From contig NZ_JACBGN010000007.1 in the NCBI RefSeq assembly GCF_013401435.1, positions 1-64,000 of the forward strand: DNA of 64,000 bases, given 5' to 3'. The notes beneath the pieces are model-generated. The model was not told where the DNA came from and did not search any database. It saw only the letters and a list, made by a program, of their open reading frames with translations. The first letter of the stretch is position 1. Every line of letters begins with the position of its first letter. This document shows positions 2,582 to 46,108 of this stretch, piece after piece. A program made the translations under genes and the position numbers. Origin of the DNA: Streptomyces sp. BR123. Its GTDB lineage: Bacteria; Actinomycetota; Actinomycetes; Streptomycetales; Streptomycetaceae.

Positions 2582-4104
2582 CTAGAACAGGGTCAGGGGC
2601 GCAGGTGGGGGCGGGTTGGTCTGGTGTGCCCGGATGGCGTCCCGCAGGTGGGCGGGGGTCACGAGGGTGGCGTCGAACGTCTCGGTCCAGCCGTTGGGCA
2701 TCTGGGCGGCGGTGAGGAAGATGCCGTGCCCGTCGGCGCGGAGCCGGCGCAGGATCGTCTGCTCGACGGACAGGGCGTCGTCGCCGGTGGGCACGTGGCG
2801 TTCGTAGAACAGGGCCCATCCGAGGCGGCGGTGCTGGGCGATACGGTCGTTGCGCTGGAGAGCGCCTGCAACGCCGATCTTGACGGCGCCGTGCTGTGCG
2901 TGGGTGACGACGTAGACGCGGGCGGGCGCGGCACGGTCGAAGCCGTGGCGGGCGCAGTACTTGCATCTGCGGCCGCTGCGGATCTTGGCCAGGGTGGGGG
3001 TCGAGGTGCGGCCGCAGGTGGTGCAGCGGCAGCGCCAGGGCGTCATGGCCGTGGTGTAGGGCTCCAGGGGCTCGAGGCCGGCTTCGCGCATGGAGGCGGT
3101 GGCGCGGTCGGGGTCTTCCCGTCGTGCGGCGGCGGCGCGGAGGTCGGCGCAGCGTCGGCATCCGCTCTGGCCGGCGAGGATGGAGCCGAAGGTCGGTGAG
3201 GTGATGGTGCCGCAGCCGTGGCACAGGCACCGGGGTGCTTGACCCCGCGGTACGGTTCCTGGGGTTCGAATCCGTGCTCGCGCATCTCGGCGACGGCCAG
3301 GTCCTCGTCGTGGCGCTGTGCCTCACCGTTGGCCCGGTCGGCGCATCGTTTGCAGGCCGCACGTCGGCTCCGGCCGGCCAGGGAGCACAGGCGCGGGGAG
3401 ACGATGGCCCCGCACTTGGTGCAGCGGCTCTTCCACGGGAACGCGGTGCCGAGGTAGGGCTCCAGCGGCTCCAGGCCCGCCGCCCGCATCACCGCGGCCG
3501 CGGTCTCGGCGTCGTGGCGCATCGACGCGTTGGCCTTGCGCCGGCCACAGGGGTAGCAGCCGCCCTGCCCCCGCCGGATGGAGCCCAGCGTGGGGGTACC
3601 GGGCGCTCCGCACGCCCGGCAGCGGACGGGCCACGGCGTGTCCACTCCCGGGTACGGGGTGAGGGGTTCCAGGCCCGCGGCCCGCATGTCGGCCGCGGCG
3701 ACGGCCGGGTCGACTGGCGCGTTCGGTGCGCACCACCGGCAGGGTCCGGAGCCGGAGTTGATCCGGACGTAGGTGGGTGTGACCTCGCGTCCGCATGCGA
3801 GGTGGCGGCATCGCCACTTGCGGTCGCTGCCGGGGTAGGGCTCCAGGGGTTCCAGGCCCGCCGCCCGCATCACCGCGGCCGCGGCGTCGGGGTCGATGCG
3901 GGCCCGCCCGGAGCAGTACACGCAGCCGCGCTGTCCCGTGGTGACGTTGCTCAGGCGGGGGGTGACCTCCCGCCCGCACGTCGTATGGCGGCATCGCCAC
4001 GGGGCGGAGCTGCCGGGGTAGGGCTCCAGCGGCTCCAGGTCGGCCGCCCGCATAATCTCTTCCGGCTCGCGGGGGTCCTTCCGCGGTCTGCCGGTGCGCG
4101 CCAT
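2582..4104 (-). pseudogene. multi-zinc-module protein with GIY-YIG/T5orf172-like C-terminus, frame broken
   Basis: The start MARTGRPRKDP has GGGGAG 8 nt upstream. The protein is built from six tandem modules of about 50 residues, each with LEPLEPYPG, W-R-C-x4-C-G, a TP segment and a final C-x2-C. These look like treble-clef or ribbon zinc modules. The tail (VYVVTHAQHGAVKIGVA, later VEQTILRRLR) resembles the GIY-YIG/T5orf172 nuclease-like fold. In module five, near 3230, the frame shifts between VKHP and RCLCHGCG. The conserved W of that module is missing, which fits a small deletion. Downstream codons stay well preserved to 2582, so the break is recent or a read error. Probably a DNA-binding or DNA-processing protein. 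Confidence 0.65.
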
Positions 4105-9571: not shown

Positions 9572-10195
9572 ATGATGGCTTTGACGGAGATCCGGCGGGG
9601 CGTGCCCGAGGGCGCCGAGGGACGGGTGGCACAGCTCTACTGGGAGGCGTTCGGGCGCAAACTGGGCCCGGCCCTCGGCCCGTCCGAGGCGGGGCAGGCC
9701 TTCCTTGCCGCCCACCTGCACCGCGATCGGGCCGTGGTGGCCCTGCGCGAGGGACGGGTCGTCGCGGTCGGCGGGTACAAGACCGCCGATGGCCGGGGCC
9801 TTACGGGCGGTGGCGCGGTGGACGTCCTGCGCGCGTATGGCCCTGTGCGTGGGCTGCCCCGGCTCGCGCTGCTCGCCCTGCTGGAGCGCGATGCGGCAAG
9901 GGGGGAGATGGTGATGGACGGGCTCGCCGTCGCGCCGGAGCTGCGGGGCAACGGCATCGGGGCGCGCCTGCTGCGGGAGGTGTACGCGGTCGCGGCAGAG
10001 CACGGCTGCGACCGGCTGCGGTTGGACGTGATCGATGTCAACCCCCTGGCCCGCGCACTGTACGAACGCCAGGGCTTTCGCGCCACGGCGACCCAGCGCA
10101 CTCCCTTCCTGCGGGATCTGATGGGATTCGAGGCCGTGACCACCATGCACCGCCCCGTCACCGCAGCCGACCGCACCCCAGGAGCGACATCATGA
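9572..10195 (+). CDS. GNAT-family N-acetyltransferase
   Basis: The 207-residue protein shows the GNAT acetyl-CoA loop in MDGLAVAPELRGNGIGARLL (V-x-P-x-x-R-G-x-G-I/A), followed by LRLDVIDVNPLARALYERQGF, the usual last strands. It acetylates an amine of unknown identity. The start MMALTEI lies very close to the predicted promoter and has no obvious ribosome site, so the message may be leaderless. Its stop overlaps the start of the PaaX regulator by four bases, so they are translationally coupled. Confidence 0.85.
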   Translation: MMALTEIRRGVPEGAEGRVAQLYWEAFGRKLGPALGPSEAGQAFLAAHLHRDRAVVALREGRVVAVGGYKTADGRGLTGGGAVDVLRAYGPVRGLPRLALLALLERDAARGEMVMDGLAVAPELRGNGIGARLLREVYAVAAEHGCDRLRLDVIDVNPLARALYERQGFRATATQRTPFLRDLMGFEAVTTMHRPVTAADRTPGATS

Positions 10196-11154
10196 TGAGC
10201 GAGGCCGCGAAGGCCACCGGGCATGCGCCCCGGGCCGCAGCCCGGACCGGGGCCCGCGCCGCCACGGGGGTCAAGGCCCCCGAGATCCCGACCCGGCTCC
10301 TGGTCGAGGCCCTCGTACGCGAGGACGGCAGCGTGGACGCGGGCGAGCTGTACGCCGTGGCGACAGCCCTGGGCATGACGGACCAGCAGGTCCGCCTGTG
10401 CATCAAGCGGCTGGTCGCGGAGGGGCGGTTCAGCCACGAGGGGCGGGGGCGCAAGGCCGTCCTGCGCGCCGTCACCGACGCTTCGGGGGCGCTCGCCCCG
10501 GACGCGGCCTTCGTACGCTTCGCCTATCGCCAAGACCGCGGCCAGGCCCCGTGGGACGGCCGGTGGCACCTGATCGCCTTCGCCGTACCGGAGTCCCGGC
10601 GCCCCGCCCGCGACGCGCTGCGCGACCGGCTGCTGTCGCTCGGGGCAGCACCGCTGCAAGGCGGGCTGTACGTGACCGCCAATGACGTCGGGCCGTACGT
10701 GAGCGCGGCCGCGGCCGAACTCGGCATCGCTTCGGCCATCACCACGCTCACGAGCACCGATCTTCGTGTCGGGGGGACGTCCGACCCGAGCAAGCTGGCT
10801 GCCTGCTTGTGGCCGCTTCAGGAGATCGCCGCACGGTACGAGGACCTTGCCGCGCTCGCCATGGACCGGCTGGCACGCATCGAGGCGGCACTGGACGCCG
10901 GAGCCGGACCCGGGCAACTGGGTGCAGTGCAGCGGCTGACGTACGCGGTGGAGACGGCCGCGGAGTTCACGCGGGCCATGACTCCCGACCCGCTGCTTCC
11001 ACCGGAGCTCCTGCCCGCGGACTGGGCCGGGAGGCGAGCACGGGCGCTGGCGGCTCAGTTGTGGCAGCGGCTGGCCGAACTGCCCGCCGAGCCGAACGAG
11101 CCCCGGCTCTTCCGGCTTTACACCCAGGGCACCGGACACGCTCCGAACCCATAG
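10192..11154 (+). CDS. PaaX-family transcriptional repressor
   Basis: The 320-residue protein has a basic N-terminus, then a winged-helix region (TRLLVEALVREDGSVDAGEL; MTDQQVRLCIKRLVAEGRF). The PaaX middle domain follows (WDGRWHLIAFAVPESRR, and LGAAPLQGGLYVTANDVGPY). Length and layout fit the family, which in its founding member senses phenylacetyl-CoA. No paa genes are present, so the ligand is probably different. It overlaps the upstream GNAT gene (ATGA) and likely controls that gene and the divergent hydrolase. Confidence 0.85.
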   Translation: MMSEAAKATGHAPRAAARTGARAATGVKAPEIPTRLLVEALVREDGSVDAGELYAVATALGMTDQQVRLCIKRLVAEGRFSHEGRGRKAVLRAVTDASGALAPDAAFVRFAYRQDRGQAPWDGRWHLIAFAVPESRRPARDALRDRLLSLGAAPLQGGLYVTANDVGPYVSAAAAELGIASAITTLTSTDLRVGGTSDPSKLAACLWPLQEIAARYEDLAALAMDRLARIEAALDAGAGPGQLGAVQRLTYAVETAAEFTRAMTPDPLLPPELLPADWAGRRARALAAQLWQRLAELPAEPNEPRLFRLYTQGTGHAPNP

Positions 11155-41872: not shown

Positions 41873-42757
41873 GAACTTCTATCGGGAGTTCAGGCGTCGC
41901 CAGCAGATCAGTGCGCATCCGAGGTTGAGGAAGGCTTCGTGGATGTCGTCGCGTATCTCCCAGCGGATCCGCAGGCGGCGGAACCAGTGCAGGTGGGCGA
42001 ATGCTCGCTCCACGACCCAGCGGTGGGTGCCGAATCCGGAGCCGTGCTCGGTGCACCGGCGGGCGATCAGCGGCTTCACGCCGAGATCCCGGACGAGGCG
42101 GCGGTACTTGTCGTGGTCGTAGCCGCGGTCGCCCAGCACCACGTCCGGGCGGCGCCGGGGCCGGCCTCGCTTGCCCCTCACCGGCGGCGCCGCCTGAAGC
42201 AACGGAATCAGCTGGGTGACGTCGTTGCGGTTGCCACCGGTCAAGGTGGCGGCGAGCGGGATACCGGTGGCGTCGGTGATCAGGTGATGCGTGCTGCCCG
42301 TCCTGCCCCGGTCAACAGGGCTTCGTCCCGTCGTGGATCCCCCTTTCAATGCCCGTATGTGGGAGCCGTCGACGGCCGCCTGGGAGAAGTCCAGGGCGTT
42401 CACGCTGCGAAGCTTGGCCAGAAGGACCTCGTGCAGCCGGGGCCAGACTCCAGCCTCGGTCCACTCGGCCAGGCGGCGCCAGCAGGTCATGCCCGAGCCG
42501 AAGCCGAGTTCCTGCGGCAGATGCTCCCAGGCGATCCCGGTGTGCAGGACGAACAGGATGCCCTGGAACACCAGCCGGTCCGGATGCCGCCTTCGCCCAG
42601 GGTGCCGGGGCCGACGTTTCACCTTCGGCAGCAGCCGCTCGATCACCCCCCACAGCTCGTGGTCGACATCCCACGGCTTCGACCGAGCCACTCCAACCCC
42701 CGGATCGTCAGTCCCGGAGTGATCCAACCACCTTGTAGATCATTTCGTTAGGAGTTC
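41873..42757. mobile_element. IS5-type insertion sequence with weak terminal repeats
   Basis: GAACTTCTATCG at 41873-41884 matches, with two changes, the inverse of CGTTAGGAGTTC at 42746-42757, close to both ends of the transposase. I cannot see a clean target duplication, so these boundaries are tentative. The right end abuts an ISL3 fragment. Confidence 0.45.
41879..42727 (-). CDS. IS5-type transposase, apparently intact
   Basis: The 282-residue protein has a DDE set: AVDGSHIRALKGG, VLGDRGYDHDKY and THRWVVERAFAHLHWF. No frame break. Its N-terminal HELWGVIERLLPKVK is usual for the group. This transposase differs clearly from the one at 19496-20350. Confidence 0.85.
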   Translation of the reverse strand: MDHSGTDDPGVGVARSKPWDVDHELWGVIERLLPKVKRRPRHPGRRRHPDRLVFQGILFVLHTGIAWEHLPQELGFGSGMTCWRRLAEWTEAGVWPRLHEVLLAKLRSVNALDFSQAAVDGSHIRALKGGSTTGRSPVDRGRTGSTHHLITDATGIPLAATLTGGNRNDVTQLIPLLQAAPPVRGKRGRPRRRPDVVLGDRGYDHDKYRRLVRDLGVKPLIARRCTEHGSGFGTHRWVVERAFAHLHWFRRLRIRWEIRDDIHEAFLNLGCALICWRRLNSR

Positions 42758-43596: not shown

Positions 43597-43917
43597 GTGG
43601 AGTCGCCGAGGGTGACGGTGAGGCCCGAGCCGGACGGCGTGCGGGTGGTCGTCTGCTCCGGTGCGTTCGACATGGACACGACGGGGAAACTGGCGGTCGC
43701 GTGTGATCGCGACGCCGCCGACGCCCGGCTCCTGGTGGTCGACGTCGCTGGCGTGACGTTCGCAGACTCGTCCTTCCTCAACCTCCTCATCCGGCTGAAC
43801 AACAGCCGCTCCCTCGCCCTGGCCGGGCCGCTGCCGCACCGGTTGCAGCGGCTGCTGGAGACGACAGGCGCGCTGGCCCTGTTCACGCTGCGCGACGGCC
43901 ACACACCGACAGACTGA
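43597..43917 (+). CDS. STAS-domain anti-sigma factor antagonist-like protein
   Basis: The 106-residue protein starts GTG (MESPRVTVRPEPDGVRVVVC). The STAS pattern is complete: CSGAFDMDTTGKLAVACDRD, LLVVDVAGVTFADSSFLNLL with the usual D-S-S phosphosite region, and a C-terminal helix. Such proteins bind anti-sigma kinases and release sigma factors. An RsbW-like protein is encoded at 7879-8211 but not nearby. Confidence 0.8.
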   Translation: MESPRVTVRPEPDGVRVVVCSGAFDMDTTGKLAVACDRDAADARLLVVDVAGVTFADSSFLNLLIRLNNSRSLALAGPLPHRLQRLLETTGALALFTLRDGHTPTD

Positions 43918-44187: not shown

Positions 44188-44463
44188 TCAGGTGTGGATG
44201 CGGCTGTTGGGGCCGTCCTGGTCATCGGCGGTGTCGTCGTTGAACCAGTAGTCTCCGGCGGCGAGGTAGCGGAAGGAGTGGGTGCTGCCCTTGGGGAGTT
44301 CCACGGTGACAGCCCGGTTGCCGTCCTTGCGCGGGGTGAGGGCATGAACGCCGGGACGCCAGTCGTTGAAGTCCCCGACCACGCTCACTTCGGCCGCTGG
44401 AGTGTCGGAGGGCAGGACGAAGGTGACCTTGGCGGAGTTCTTGCACACGGCGCGTTCCAGCAC
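44188..44463 (-). CDS. free-standing isoamylase-early-set/CBM48-like protein
   Basis: The 91-residue protein has the carbohydrate-binding beta-sandwich pattern: KVTFVLPSDTPAAEVSVVGD, FNDWRPGVHALTPRKDGNRA, then VELPKGSTHSFRYLAAGDYW. The FNDW phrase is a hallmark of CBM48/AMPK-type glycogen-binding modules. No catalytic domain is attached. GTG start with GGAG 8 nt upstream. It may bind glycogen or trehalose-type polymers or simply serve as a scaffold; unknown. Confidence 0.75.
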   Translation of the reverse strand: MLERAVCKNSAKVTFVLPSDTPAAEVSVVGDFNDWRPGVHALTPRKDGNRAVTVELPKGSTHSFRYLAAGDYWFNDDTADDQDGPNSRIHT

Positions 44464-44668
44464 GGTAGGGCTCCTGACGGGCAGGGTGAGCGGGGATACG
44501 GGACCATCCTCGACTCCGGGCGTCGGCTGGGCGCGCTGACGTCGCCGTACCAGCCGACGGGTCACCCACCCGCCGCACCGGGCACGCCCTGAGGTATCCC
44601 CGCGTGTGACAGTCCCGGGTGGGAAGACCGGATGACGGGTTGCTGTCGCGCCGGCCCCCCGCAGCGCT

Positions 44669-45073
44669 CTGGGTCAGACCTTTGACGACGATGCCTTCGA
44701 CTCCGGGCACCCCGGTCCACGAGTCCGGCCACTCCTGGGCAACTTGATGGTCGGTGGTCATGGGGCACAGCGTCCACGGCGGCGCCAGCGCGTGCTCGGT
44801 GAAAAGTCCCTTCAGGGCGGTGCGGCGCTGCTGGTAGGGCTCGGCGAGCAGTTCCCGGCCGTCCTGCTGGAGGATGTCGGAGGTGATGAAGGGGCGGGGA
44901 AGGCGGCCGTGAGCCGAACGGCCGTGGGGTCGGCGGTGACTGCGCGGGTCCGGAGTTTGTCGAGCCCGCCGAGGCGTCCGGACCGGCATAAGGTGGAAGT
45001 GGGCTTGCTGCCGTTTCAGGGCGTGCGCATCCAATCGGGCCAGCTCCCCGAAAGCCGGGCGGGCGCGCATCAA
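44669..45073 (-). pseudogene. ATP-dependent DNA ligase remnant
   Basis: Leftward, ILQQDGRELLAEPYQQRRTA then LKGLFTEHALAPPWTLCPMT and WTGVPGVEGIVVKGLTQ match the middle of ATP-dependent (LigD-type) ligases. GVEGIVVK corresponds to nucleotidyltransferase motif IV. The upstream part is scrambled (RPAFGELARLDAHALKRQQA) and the C-terminus is lost. Inactive. Confidence 0.6.
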
Positions 45074-45102: not shown

Positions 45103-45351
45103 ATGGAATGGGAGTTCGGCATCACCGTGCGGCGCTACGGTCCCGCCGTGCACGTAACACTGGCCGGTGAACTCGATCTGGACAGCAGATCCGCCCTCGA
45201 CGACCTGCACGCGGCCTGCGGCGAGGGCATCGACGTGCTCCTGTGCGACATGTGCCACCTGACGTTCATGGACGTCACCGGCCTGCACCGGCTCATCGAC
45301 CTCGCCCGTAGCGCCGACGAGCGAGGAATCACGTTCTTCGCCTACAACTGA
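45103..45351 (+). CDS. STAS-domain protein, probably truncated by a premature stop
   Basis: The 82-residue protein starts MEWEFGITVRRYGPAVHVTL, then AGELDLDSRSALDDLHAACG and CDMCHLTFMDVTGLHRLID, a STAS domain with the phosphosite strand. It stops at FFAYN-TGA. The same frame continues without a further stop as QRQPHRLLDLIDSLYPPEGA, which looks like the expected C-terminal helix if the TGA were TGG. The product may therefore lack its last helix. Confidence 0.7.
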   Translation: MEWEFGITVRRYGPAVHVTLAGELDLDSRSALDDLHAACGEGIDVLLCDMCHLTFMDVTGLHRLIDLARSADERGITFFAYN

Positions 45352-45706
45352 CAGCGACAGCCCCACAGGCTCCTGGACCTCATCGACAGCCTCTACCCAC
45401 CCGAAGGGGCCGGAAAGCCCTGCTCTGGCCCCGCCCCCGCCTGCTGCGCCGCACACTGCAGGATGCTGCAGCATCCCACCGCGCCACCGGCGCCGAGCCG
45501 GCCCATGGGGCGCCGTCCCGGCGAAAGCTGTGATCGGCAGCGGGAGGCAAGGCAGGTGTGGCCAGGCCGGGTGTTTTCCGCGAAGCCGGCGATCCGGTCG
45601 GGCCCGGGGCGGTTGGGCGGCACGAAATGAGCCGGAGTTCCTGCAGCCTTCCTCTGCATCACCGGCGGTATCTTCAGCCCCTGGCCACGAGCGAAGTGGG
45701 GTGTGC
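45352..45706. other. gap with lost STAS tail
   Basis: The first ~60 nt are the in-frame continuation of the truncated STAS gene. The remainder carries no recognised gene and leads to the ADF-like gene. Confidence 0.4.
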
Positions 45707-46108
45707 GTGAGCAGCCTGATCGGCTTTTCGGAGGGGTGCCTTGATGCCTTCCGCCACCTGAGGGAGACGCGGGAGATCAATACCGTGATCCTCCAGTACA
45801 TCGACACCCTCGAGGTCCTGGTGGCGGAGGTGGAGGGCAATCTGACCCATGACGAGCTCATTCAGGCCCTGCCCGAGGACAAGCCACGTCTGGTCATCCA
45901 CGAGCTGTCCTTCGCCACCCGGGAAGGCAAGCGCAGGAACGAACAGCTGCTGGTCTTCTGGATGCCGCCCGGTGGCAGCGGACAGGAAGAGGCCTACACA
46001 GCCCTCTACACCGTCCTGAAGGGGTACCTCGCCGACGTTCACGTTCGCCTCACGGCCAGGCGGGCAGATGAGCTGGACTACCACAGGCTCGTTGCCCTGG
46101 CCGGCTGA
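45707..46108 (+). CDS. ADF/cofilin-like (actin-depolymerising factor homology) protein
   Basis: The 133-residue protein has the length and order of eukaryotic ADF/cofilin. It has an N-terminal helix (FSEGCLDAFRHLRE, residues 7-20), a strand pair (INTVILQYIDTLEVLVAEVE), HDELIQALPEDKPRLVIHEL, SFATREGKRRNEQLLVFWMP, the long helix EEAYTALYTVLKGYLADVHV, and a final strand and helix RLTARRADELDYHRLVALAG. The phrases LPED-PR, REGKRRNEQLLVFWMP and DELDYHRL align well with plant and yeast ADF. The actin-contacting KMxYASSK stretch is not conserved (EAYTALYTVLK). GTG at 45707 is preferred (AGTGGGG upstream). Its bacterial role is unknown; it could bind a filament protein or be exported toward a host. 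Confidence 0.7.
   Translation: MSSLIGFSEGCLDAFRHLRETREINTVILQYIDTLEVLVAEVEGNLTHDELIQALPEDKPRLVIHELSFATREGKRRNEQLLVFWMPPGGSGQEEAYTALYTVLKGYLADVHVRLTARRADELDYHRLVALAG

Follow-up and report, generated by a model that had tools for sequence, protein, structure and literature searches.

Apparent Loss of the Actin Contacts in a Divergent Clade of Streptomyces Proteins with the Cofilin Fold

In eukaryotic cells, cofilin normally dismantles actin filaments, and the ADF/cofilins are often described as eukaryotic. Here we describe a bacterial relative encoded in a 64,000-nucleotide stretch of the genome of Streptomyces sp. BR123 (contig NZ_JACBGN010000007.1, positions 1 to 64,000; hereafter the window). 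This protein belongs to a group of streptomycete ADF-H proteins, termed clade B, which by residue comparison appears to have lost the actin contacts while the fold was kept. The best-supported explanation is exaptation, in which the predicted fold was retained, the actin face would have been erased, and new residues became fixed. Hence, bacteria appear to have kept the shape of cofilin and given it another job. As to the nature of this job, we tentatively favor an account to which we give somewhat less than an even chance: a horizontally acquired, eukaryotic-type ADF-H domain became a protein-binding module in clade B, likeliest in STAS-type stress or developmental control. A preliminary description of this gene had proposed that the fold was reused for a bacterial filament or for another partner, or that the protein acts on a host. 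Reuse for another, putative partner is now the likeliest of these readings.

The identity of the window protein is settled by the agreement of a profile search, an AlphaFold2 model, Foldseek and VIA-align: it is a member of the ADF-H superfamily and a true relative of cofilin. The Pfam profile PF00241 matches residues 11–128 over nearly its full length (profile positions 1–122 of 125; 51.8 bits with a cut-off of 22.4; E = 8.1e-14). Among PDB entries searched with phmmer, the closest are 5ivu (E = 4.6e-8) and actophorin (E = 6.2e-8). The AlphaFold2 model, computed from 28 sequences (the window protein and fetched loci), has a pLDDT of 90.5 and a pTM of 0.85; its predicted elements are, in sequence, a helix, two strands, a second helix, two further strands, a long helix, another strand and the C-terminal helices. 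All 50 Foldseek matches listed for this model are ADF-H proteins or complexes containing one (best E = 1.7e-10), and VIA-align superimposes it on yeast cofilin with a Z score of 19.8 and an rmsd of 1.6 over 129 residues. Yeast cofilin (1cfy), actophorin (7sog) and Arabidopsis ADF1 (1f7s) share this fold with the window protein from end to end at 16, 25 and 21% identity (Foldseek). Together with the clade described below, profile and fold rule out a chance similarity to cofilin. The preliminary description, which had read a 133-residue frame in ADF/cofilin order from end to end, was correct in its coordinates, and the motifs it quoted (LPEDKPR, REGKRRNEQLLVFWMP, DELDYHRL and a final AG) are all present in the translation. 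The frame remains open in the 5′ direction to a GTG at 45530, and clade members align from 45707 (Table 1). No NCBIfam model matches the window protein, searches of PADLOC (defense genes) and PHROGs (phage families) gave no match up to E = 0.1, and no STAS profile match was found within the ADF-H protein itself.

Table 1. Features of the window discussed in the text
Feature	Position	Strand	Description	Basis
ADF-H (cofilin-fold) protein, divergent Streptomyces clade B	45707..46108	+	133 aa, GTG start at 45707, stop ends at 46108	PF00241, AlphaFold, Foldseek/VIA, tree
NTV motif	45779..45787	+	Residues 25–27, start of first long strand	Conservation in 33 clade-B rows
GNLTHDEL motif	45836..45859	+	Residues 44–51, end of second strand into helix	Conservation in 33 clade-B rows
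Long helix	45968..46027	+	Helix of the AlphaFold model, residues 88–107, here GQEEAYTALYTVLK; in cofilin carries the KMxYASSK actin contact	
STAS-domain gene	45103..45351	+	82 aa, ~0.35 kb upstream of the ADF-H gene, same strand; reads FMDVTGL	PF13466, E = 9.5e-8
Second STAS-domain gene	43597..43917	+	106 aa; reads FADSS	PF13466, E = 1.4e-8
Small CBM48-type gene	44188..44463	-	NCBI "isoamylase early set domain" in relatives	PF16561, E = 2.4e-5, 24.9 bits, just under the cut-off of 26.8
Reading frame with ATP-dependent DNA ligase fragment	44222..45073	-	Overlaps the CBM48-type gene	phmmer, E = 2.1e-29 to annotated ligase in NZ_CP130721.1
IS5-type transposase	41879..42571	-	Relative in NZ_CP108617.1 annotated as IS5 family	Family clustering

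Cofilins in Streptomyces are in part already known, and their presence is not new, as is evident from a 2009 table, a crystal structure and database names. The table of Yutin et al. contains the entry "A homolog only in Streptomyces (112791749), probable HGT" (PMC2651865), PDB entry 5ivu is titled "Crystal Structure of Streptomyces griseoflavus Cofilin", and three of six plasmid genes related to the window gene are annotated at NCBI as "cofilin family protein" (one is a "hypothetical protein" and two records are unannotated). The preliminary description was right about an ADF-H protein in a Streptomyces-type genome and had overlooked these precedents. As to the function of Streptomyces cofilins, we found nothing beyond PMC2651865 among the matches listed from the openly licensed PMC literature (titles and abstract starts).

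The distribution of these genes is patchy. PF00241 matches once in the genome of the window and, by profile search, in 9 of 199 Streptomyces genomes (group A, introduced below, and clade B counted together). A larger draw from the family yielded 19 genomes with a match among 394, spanning both kinds and 4 of 17 genera, and an earlier draw gave 7 of 200. Across the phylum, a single genome of 396 matched, which is that of the window, and 14 control genomes contained no match. Relatives of the window protein occur on 6 of 72,556 plasmid records, all of them linear Streptomyces plasmids. A collection of genome contigs yielded 18 loci, 17 titled Streptomyces and one "Actinobacteria bacterium", when the family alignment served as query; a single-protein query gave none. 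Searches of phages by tblastn, with the window protein and with the group A protein of locus L012, returned no copies, and viral contigs contained no relative of the window protein.

In a phylogenetic tree the window protein stands beside eukaryotic cofilins, as the preliminary description had anticipated, within a clade of its own. Clade B comprises 34 rows on one side of a branch with support values of 96/97, recovered in 98% of 200 bootstrap trees, and stands apart from the eukaryotes and from a second set of streptomycete proteins. These group A proteins (L002, L012, 5ivu, L058, L059, L060, L014 and L013) are cofilin-like to varying degree; L012, for example, matches 5ivu with 216.7 bits and fission yeast cofilin with 168.3 bits. 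Group A shares a fork with two yeast cofilins in the tree computed without L013. A constraint to a single group A clade fits slightly better than the free search and is not rejected (p-AU 0.64). One common bacterial origin of groups A and B is not rejected either (p-AU 0.44), and the same value leaves separate transfers for the two groups undecided. The eukaryotic side of this tree is small (seven rows from five kinds of organism), and 12 loci that are copies, fragments or frame-broken (L005, L015, L034, L043, L045, L048, L049, L050, L061, L068, L069 and L070) were omitted, as were L013 and L016 for their very long branches. In the favored account, the eukaryotic-type domain would have reached streptomycetes by horizontal transfer.

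The proteins of the 5ivu type share the fold and the bacterial family with the window protein, but differ from it in sequence and in position. The window protein is 17–24% identical to seven group A proteins and 18–19% identical to 5ivu (Foldseek); 5ivu retains KQKMAYASSK and groups with L012 and L002, whereas the window protein falls in the separate clade (96/97). Glia maturation factor (GMF) also has the ADF-H fold but lies outside clade B and keeps QMMYAGSK. While cofilin acts on actin, GMF acts on Arp2/3.

The most conspicuous change in clade B concerns the residues with which cofilin holds actin. In yeast cofilin, R96 and K98 are conserved basic contacts to G-actin, and R80, K82, R135 and R138 are essential for F-actin binding, as described in PMC3541276. 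In the window protein, R96 and K98 are replaced by Q and E, leaving no basic pair at the G/F site; at the F site, R80 is kept and K82, R135 and R138 are lost. Compared with the ADF/cofilin family, the window protein is thus distinguished by its bacterial origin, by the loss of the G/F-site and most F-site residues, and by the NTV and GNLTHDEL motifs discussed below. The same trend extends through the clade, which we tabulated as 31 core and three intermediate, basal members (L056, L051 and L047), leaving out L016 and GMF. Among the 31 core proteins, the R96 position is basic in two, the K98 position is basic in three and acidic in 20, and both are basic in two. The R80 position is basic in 29; the K82 position is acidic in 19 and basic in three. 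The R135 position is basic in one protein, and the R138 position in none.

The net charge of the contact helix changes in parallel, with means of +4.4 for five eukaryotic proteins, +3.1 for eight group A rows, +1.3 for the three basal members, and -1.5 for the 31 core members (range -4 to +3). The helices of yeast cofilin (SKMVYASSKDALRR), basal L056 (KQRMVHSSSYSTLKN) and L051 (EQRIEHSTSRNTLRN), and the window protein (QEEAYTALYTVLKG) illustrate this series. The KMxYASSK contact is therefore changed more thoroughly than the preliminary description, which had noted the change, could tell. Judged by these residues, clade B has probably lost its actin grip through alterations in the contact helix, one of two basic residues of the F-loop, and the C-terminal helix. 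The Streptomyces cofilins look like living intermediates between an intact and an erased actin site, and for this reason the exaptation of a cytoskeletal fold could be tested stepwise in culturable bacteria.

These observations bear on two readings that keep the protein on a filament. In the way that cofilin regulates actin, it could control a bacterial filament of the actin-like kind, formed by MreB, Mbl or an actin-like protein from a plasmid, through a re-shaped interface. The predicted fold is intact, and all 15 ADF-H genomes tested contain matches to the actin-family profile PF00022, presumably MreB-type proteins. However, these matches are weak (best 45.5 bits; none in the 15 genomes scores like a conventional actin) and occur also in 6 of 14 control genomes without ADF-H, while ADF-H is found in just nine of the 199 Streptomyces genomes. 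Furthermore, the annotated neighbors of four plasmid copies, hypothetical proteins in many cases, include no gene named actin-like, and the actin-contact residues are lost or charge-reversed. We consider this reading rather unlikely. Alternatively, a released protein could act on the eukaryotic actin of soil amoebae, fungi or plants. Group A, with its more cofilin-like sequences, its positively charged helix and the high scores of L012, would suit such a role, but the contacts are gone in nearly all clade-B members and no secretion signal is evident by eye in the window protein, making action on host actin very improbable. Both proposals of the preliminary description are best regarded as unsupported rather than disproved.

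Clade B is marked not only by losses but also by residues of its own. Among 33 clade-B rows (L066 was also left out), T and V of the NTV motif are invariant and N reaches a weighted conservation of 0.88; the positions of GNLTHDEL range from 0.84 to 1.0. Neither N25 and T26 nor G44, L46, H48 and L51 occur in the five eukaryotic cofilins compared. P56, W85 and P87 are conserved in the same 33 rows and are common to other ADF-H proteins too. Neither motif overlaps any of the five regions that PMC3541276 lists as contacting actin. Strand order and predicted secondary structure suggest that they form one surface patch. We infer that the strongly constrained positions R22, N25-T26 and G44-L51 probably provide the surface for a new protein partner.

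A possible clue to the expression of these genes lies upstream of them. Of 32 clade-B loci, 12 contain the hexamer CGTTGA in the 130 bp ahead of the gene, where 300 dinucleotide shuffles gave 0.97 loci on average and 5 at most. This hexamer was first noticed by eye, and the BldN consensus then led us to search for a CGTAAC-like box, defined by at least four of six positions, followed by 15–17 bp and CGTTGA. This two-box element precedes 11 of the 32 clade-B genes (mean 0.07, maximum 1 in 300 shuffles), as against 2 of the 640 other genes that were called across 28 clade-B and seven group A loci; 21 of the 32 loci lack it at this threshold. It resembles the BldN consensus CGTAACN16CGTTGA given in PMC2375139. 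Near-copies (L004, L010 and L057) are among the rows with the element, but since the spacer length varies between loci such as L041, L042, L046 and L064, the element reflects more than recent common descent. By sequence, these 11 upstream regions may carry a putative sigma-BldN-like promoter, although a CGTT -10 element would also suit other sigma factors of the ECF type. At the window copy no BldN-like promoter is seen, the best match being 7 of 12 positions; the seven group A genes examined all stay below 10 of 12. A sigma-B-type motif was found upstream of none of 31 clade-B genes. A promoter common to the eukaryote-type plasmid genes is not supported either: of the non-ADF-H genes examined, only that for S. 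globisporus TCTP reaches at least 10 of 12 positions.

The clade-B gene family is under purifying selection. For 20 core genes, NG86 dN/dS has a median of 0.39 and a maximum of 0.86 and is below 1 in 190 of 190 pairs, values that call for caution at this G+C content, and third codon positions are the most variable. This result, the clade-wide conservation of the motifs, and the retention of the promoter-like element in divergent loci all speak against the idea that the transferred gene is decaying and has no present function. On the other hand, a group A-like cofilin gene lies across two overlapping frames and is apparently broken (L061/L070, G895:C28:6201-6561), L066 is changed at its end, the distribution is patchy, and the window copy is without the promoter. 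On balance, decay appears quite improbable.

The favored account, a protein-binding module in STAS-type control, draws on the surroundings of the genes. In one genome (G162), a clade-B ADF-H domain is fused to a STAS domain in a 264-residue protein (L027:9656-10450, minus strand), with STAS_2 at residues 20–96 (E = 5.5e-14) and PF00241 at residues 146–256 (E = 8.2e-8). The STAS domain of this fusion reads FIDSGG, a gene for a PAS-GAF-SpoIIE phosphatase lies about 1 kb away, and the ADF-H domain sits on a long branch of the tree. The link with SpoIIAA-type STAS anti-sigma-factor antagonists consists in this one fused clade-B protein; the STAS genes of the window are separate neighbors. In the 82-residue protein, FMDVTGL stands at the site of the phospho-serine of SpoIIAA-type proteins. 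STAS relatives, the fusion included, occur within 0.5 kb in 4 of 28 clade-B loci, a number that rises to 6 when the distance is widened to 5 kb. Given at least 9–26 STAS_2 matches per genome in 15 ADF-H genomes (150 candidates per genome scored), the proximity within 0.5 kb is far above random placement. The STAS neighbors in the window and in L026 are of the same type, probably common by descent.

Judging from this one fusion, the neighborhood and the promoter motif, clade B would most likely be used together with STAS-type regulators in stress or development. The likeliest setting would be SpoIIAA-like partner switching. Since they can be examined directly and cheaply, the STAS fusion and the promoter provide handles on the new role.

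The neighborhoods themselves call for some restraint. CBS, PRC-barrel, hemerythrin, DUF6766, CsbD, ATP-dependent DNA ligase and IS5 transposase genes each occur within 5 kb in 2–4 of the 28 loci, and in four loci, the window included, a gene of the family of its IS5-type transposase is found no farther than about 3 kb from ADF-H. The clade-B loci resemble islands of a general stress or mobile kind, and little may therefore be read from their neighbors; the genes would sit in stress-gene islands on linear plasmids as well as chromosomes. Longer relatives of the DNA ligase fragment of the window adjoin ADF-H in L026 and L055. In L023, a gene with a Chaplin domain (PF03777; 9027-9314, minus strand) adjoins a partial ADF-H frame, and a gene that looks STAS-like by eye lies about 3.5 kb off.

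The small CBM48-type protein is an example of a partner that would place the binding module outside STAS signaling. Its relatives lie within 1.2 kb of ADF-H in 8 of 28 clade-B loci and are present in 21 of 199 Streptomyces genomes, more often in those with ADF-H of either group (6 of 9, as compared with 15 of 190 others). Nevertheless, orientation and order vary between loci, and the gene is multi-copy with up to seven matches per genome. In addition, several strains are relatives of one another, and a fusion of the two genes was not encountered. A module of this kind is in our estimate unlikely. In genome G000, three short CBM48 matches (C183, C349 and C423) start no more than five bases into a contig, as would be expected of a repeated gene at which the assembly breaks.

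Returning to STAS-type control, a broader version of the favored account would hold that streptomycetes made a eukaryotic actin-severing domain part of developmental or stress signaling. The actin face would have been erased stepwise from group A through basal to core clade B and a new binding face established; the gene would have come under a sigma-BldN-type promoter of aerial growth and, in one strain, been fused to STAS. Cofilin would then be one example of a wider plasmid pool of eukaryote-type cytosolic genes that includes TCTP, eIF5A-like, ML-domain and cyclophilin genes. In this full form we regard the proposal as doubtful.

Several eukaryote-type genes were encountered on Streptomyces plasmids. 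On the S. globisporus plasmid NZ_CP108665.1 (L071:19874-26319), a basal clade-B gene lies in a region where G+C is mostly lower (0.61–0.67 for the genes) and which also holds genes for TCTP (PF00838, E = 5.8e-41), an ML-domain protein, a cyclophilin, an S8 protease, an EF-hand protein and a GH108 protein. The whole has the appearance of eukaryote-type genes gathered on a bacterial linear plasmid. TCTP relatives occur on six plasmid records, all from Streptomyces, and in one of the 199 Streptomyces genomes, which is outside the nine with ADF-H. On the S. anulatus plasmid NZ_CP109263.1 (L073), genes annotated as IF-5A (eif5A, 3370-3840) and translationally-controlled tumor protein (9989-10492) are about 6 kb apart. 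Relatives of the ML-domain gene were found on an S. virginiae plasmid and a 3.1-Mb Embleya replicon (L075:10001-10438 and L076:10001-10435). Finally, a truncated cyclophilin gene (L018:11498-11698, minus strand; PF00160, E = 4.6e-19) has a group A cofilin gene about 1.3 kb away.
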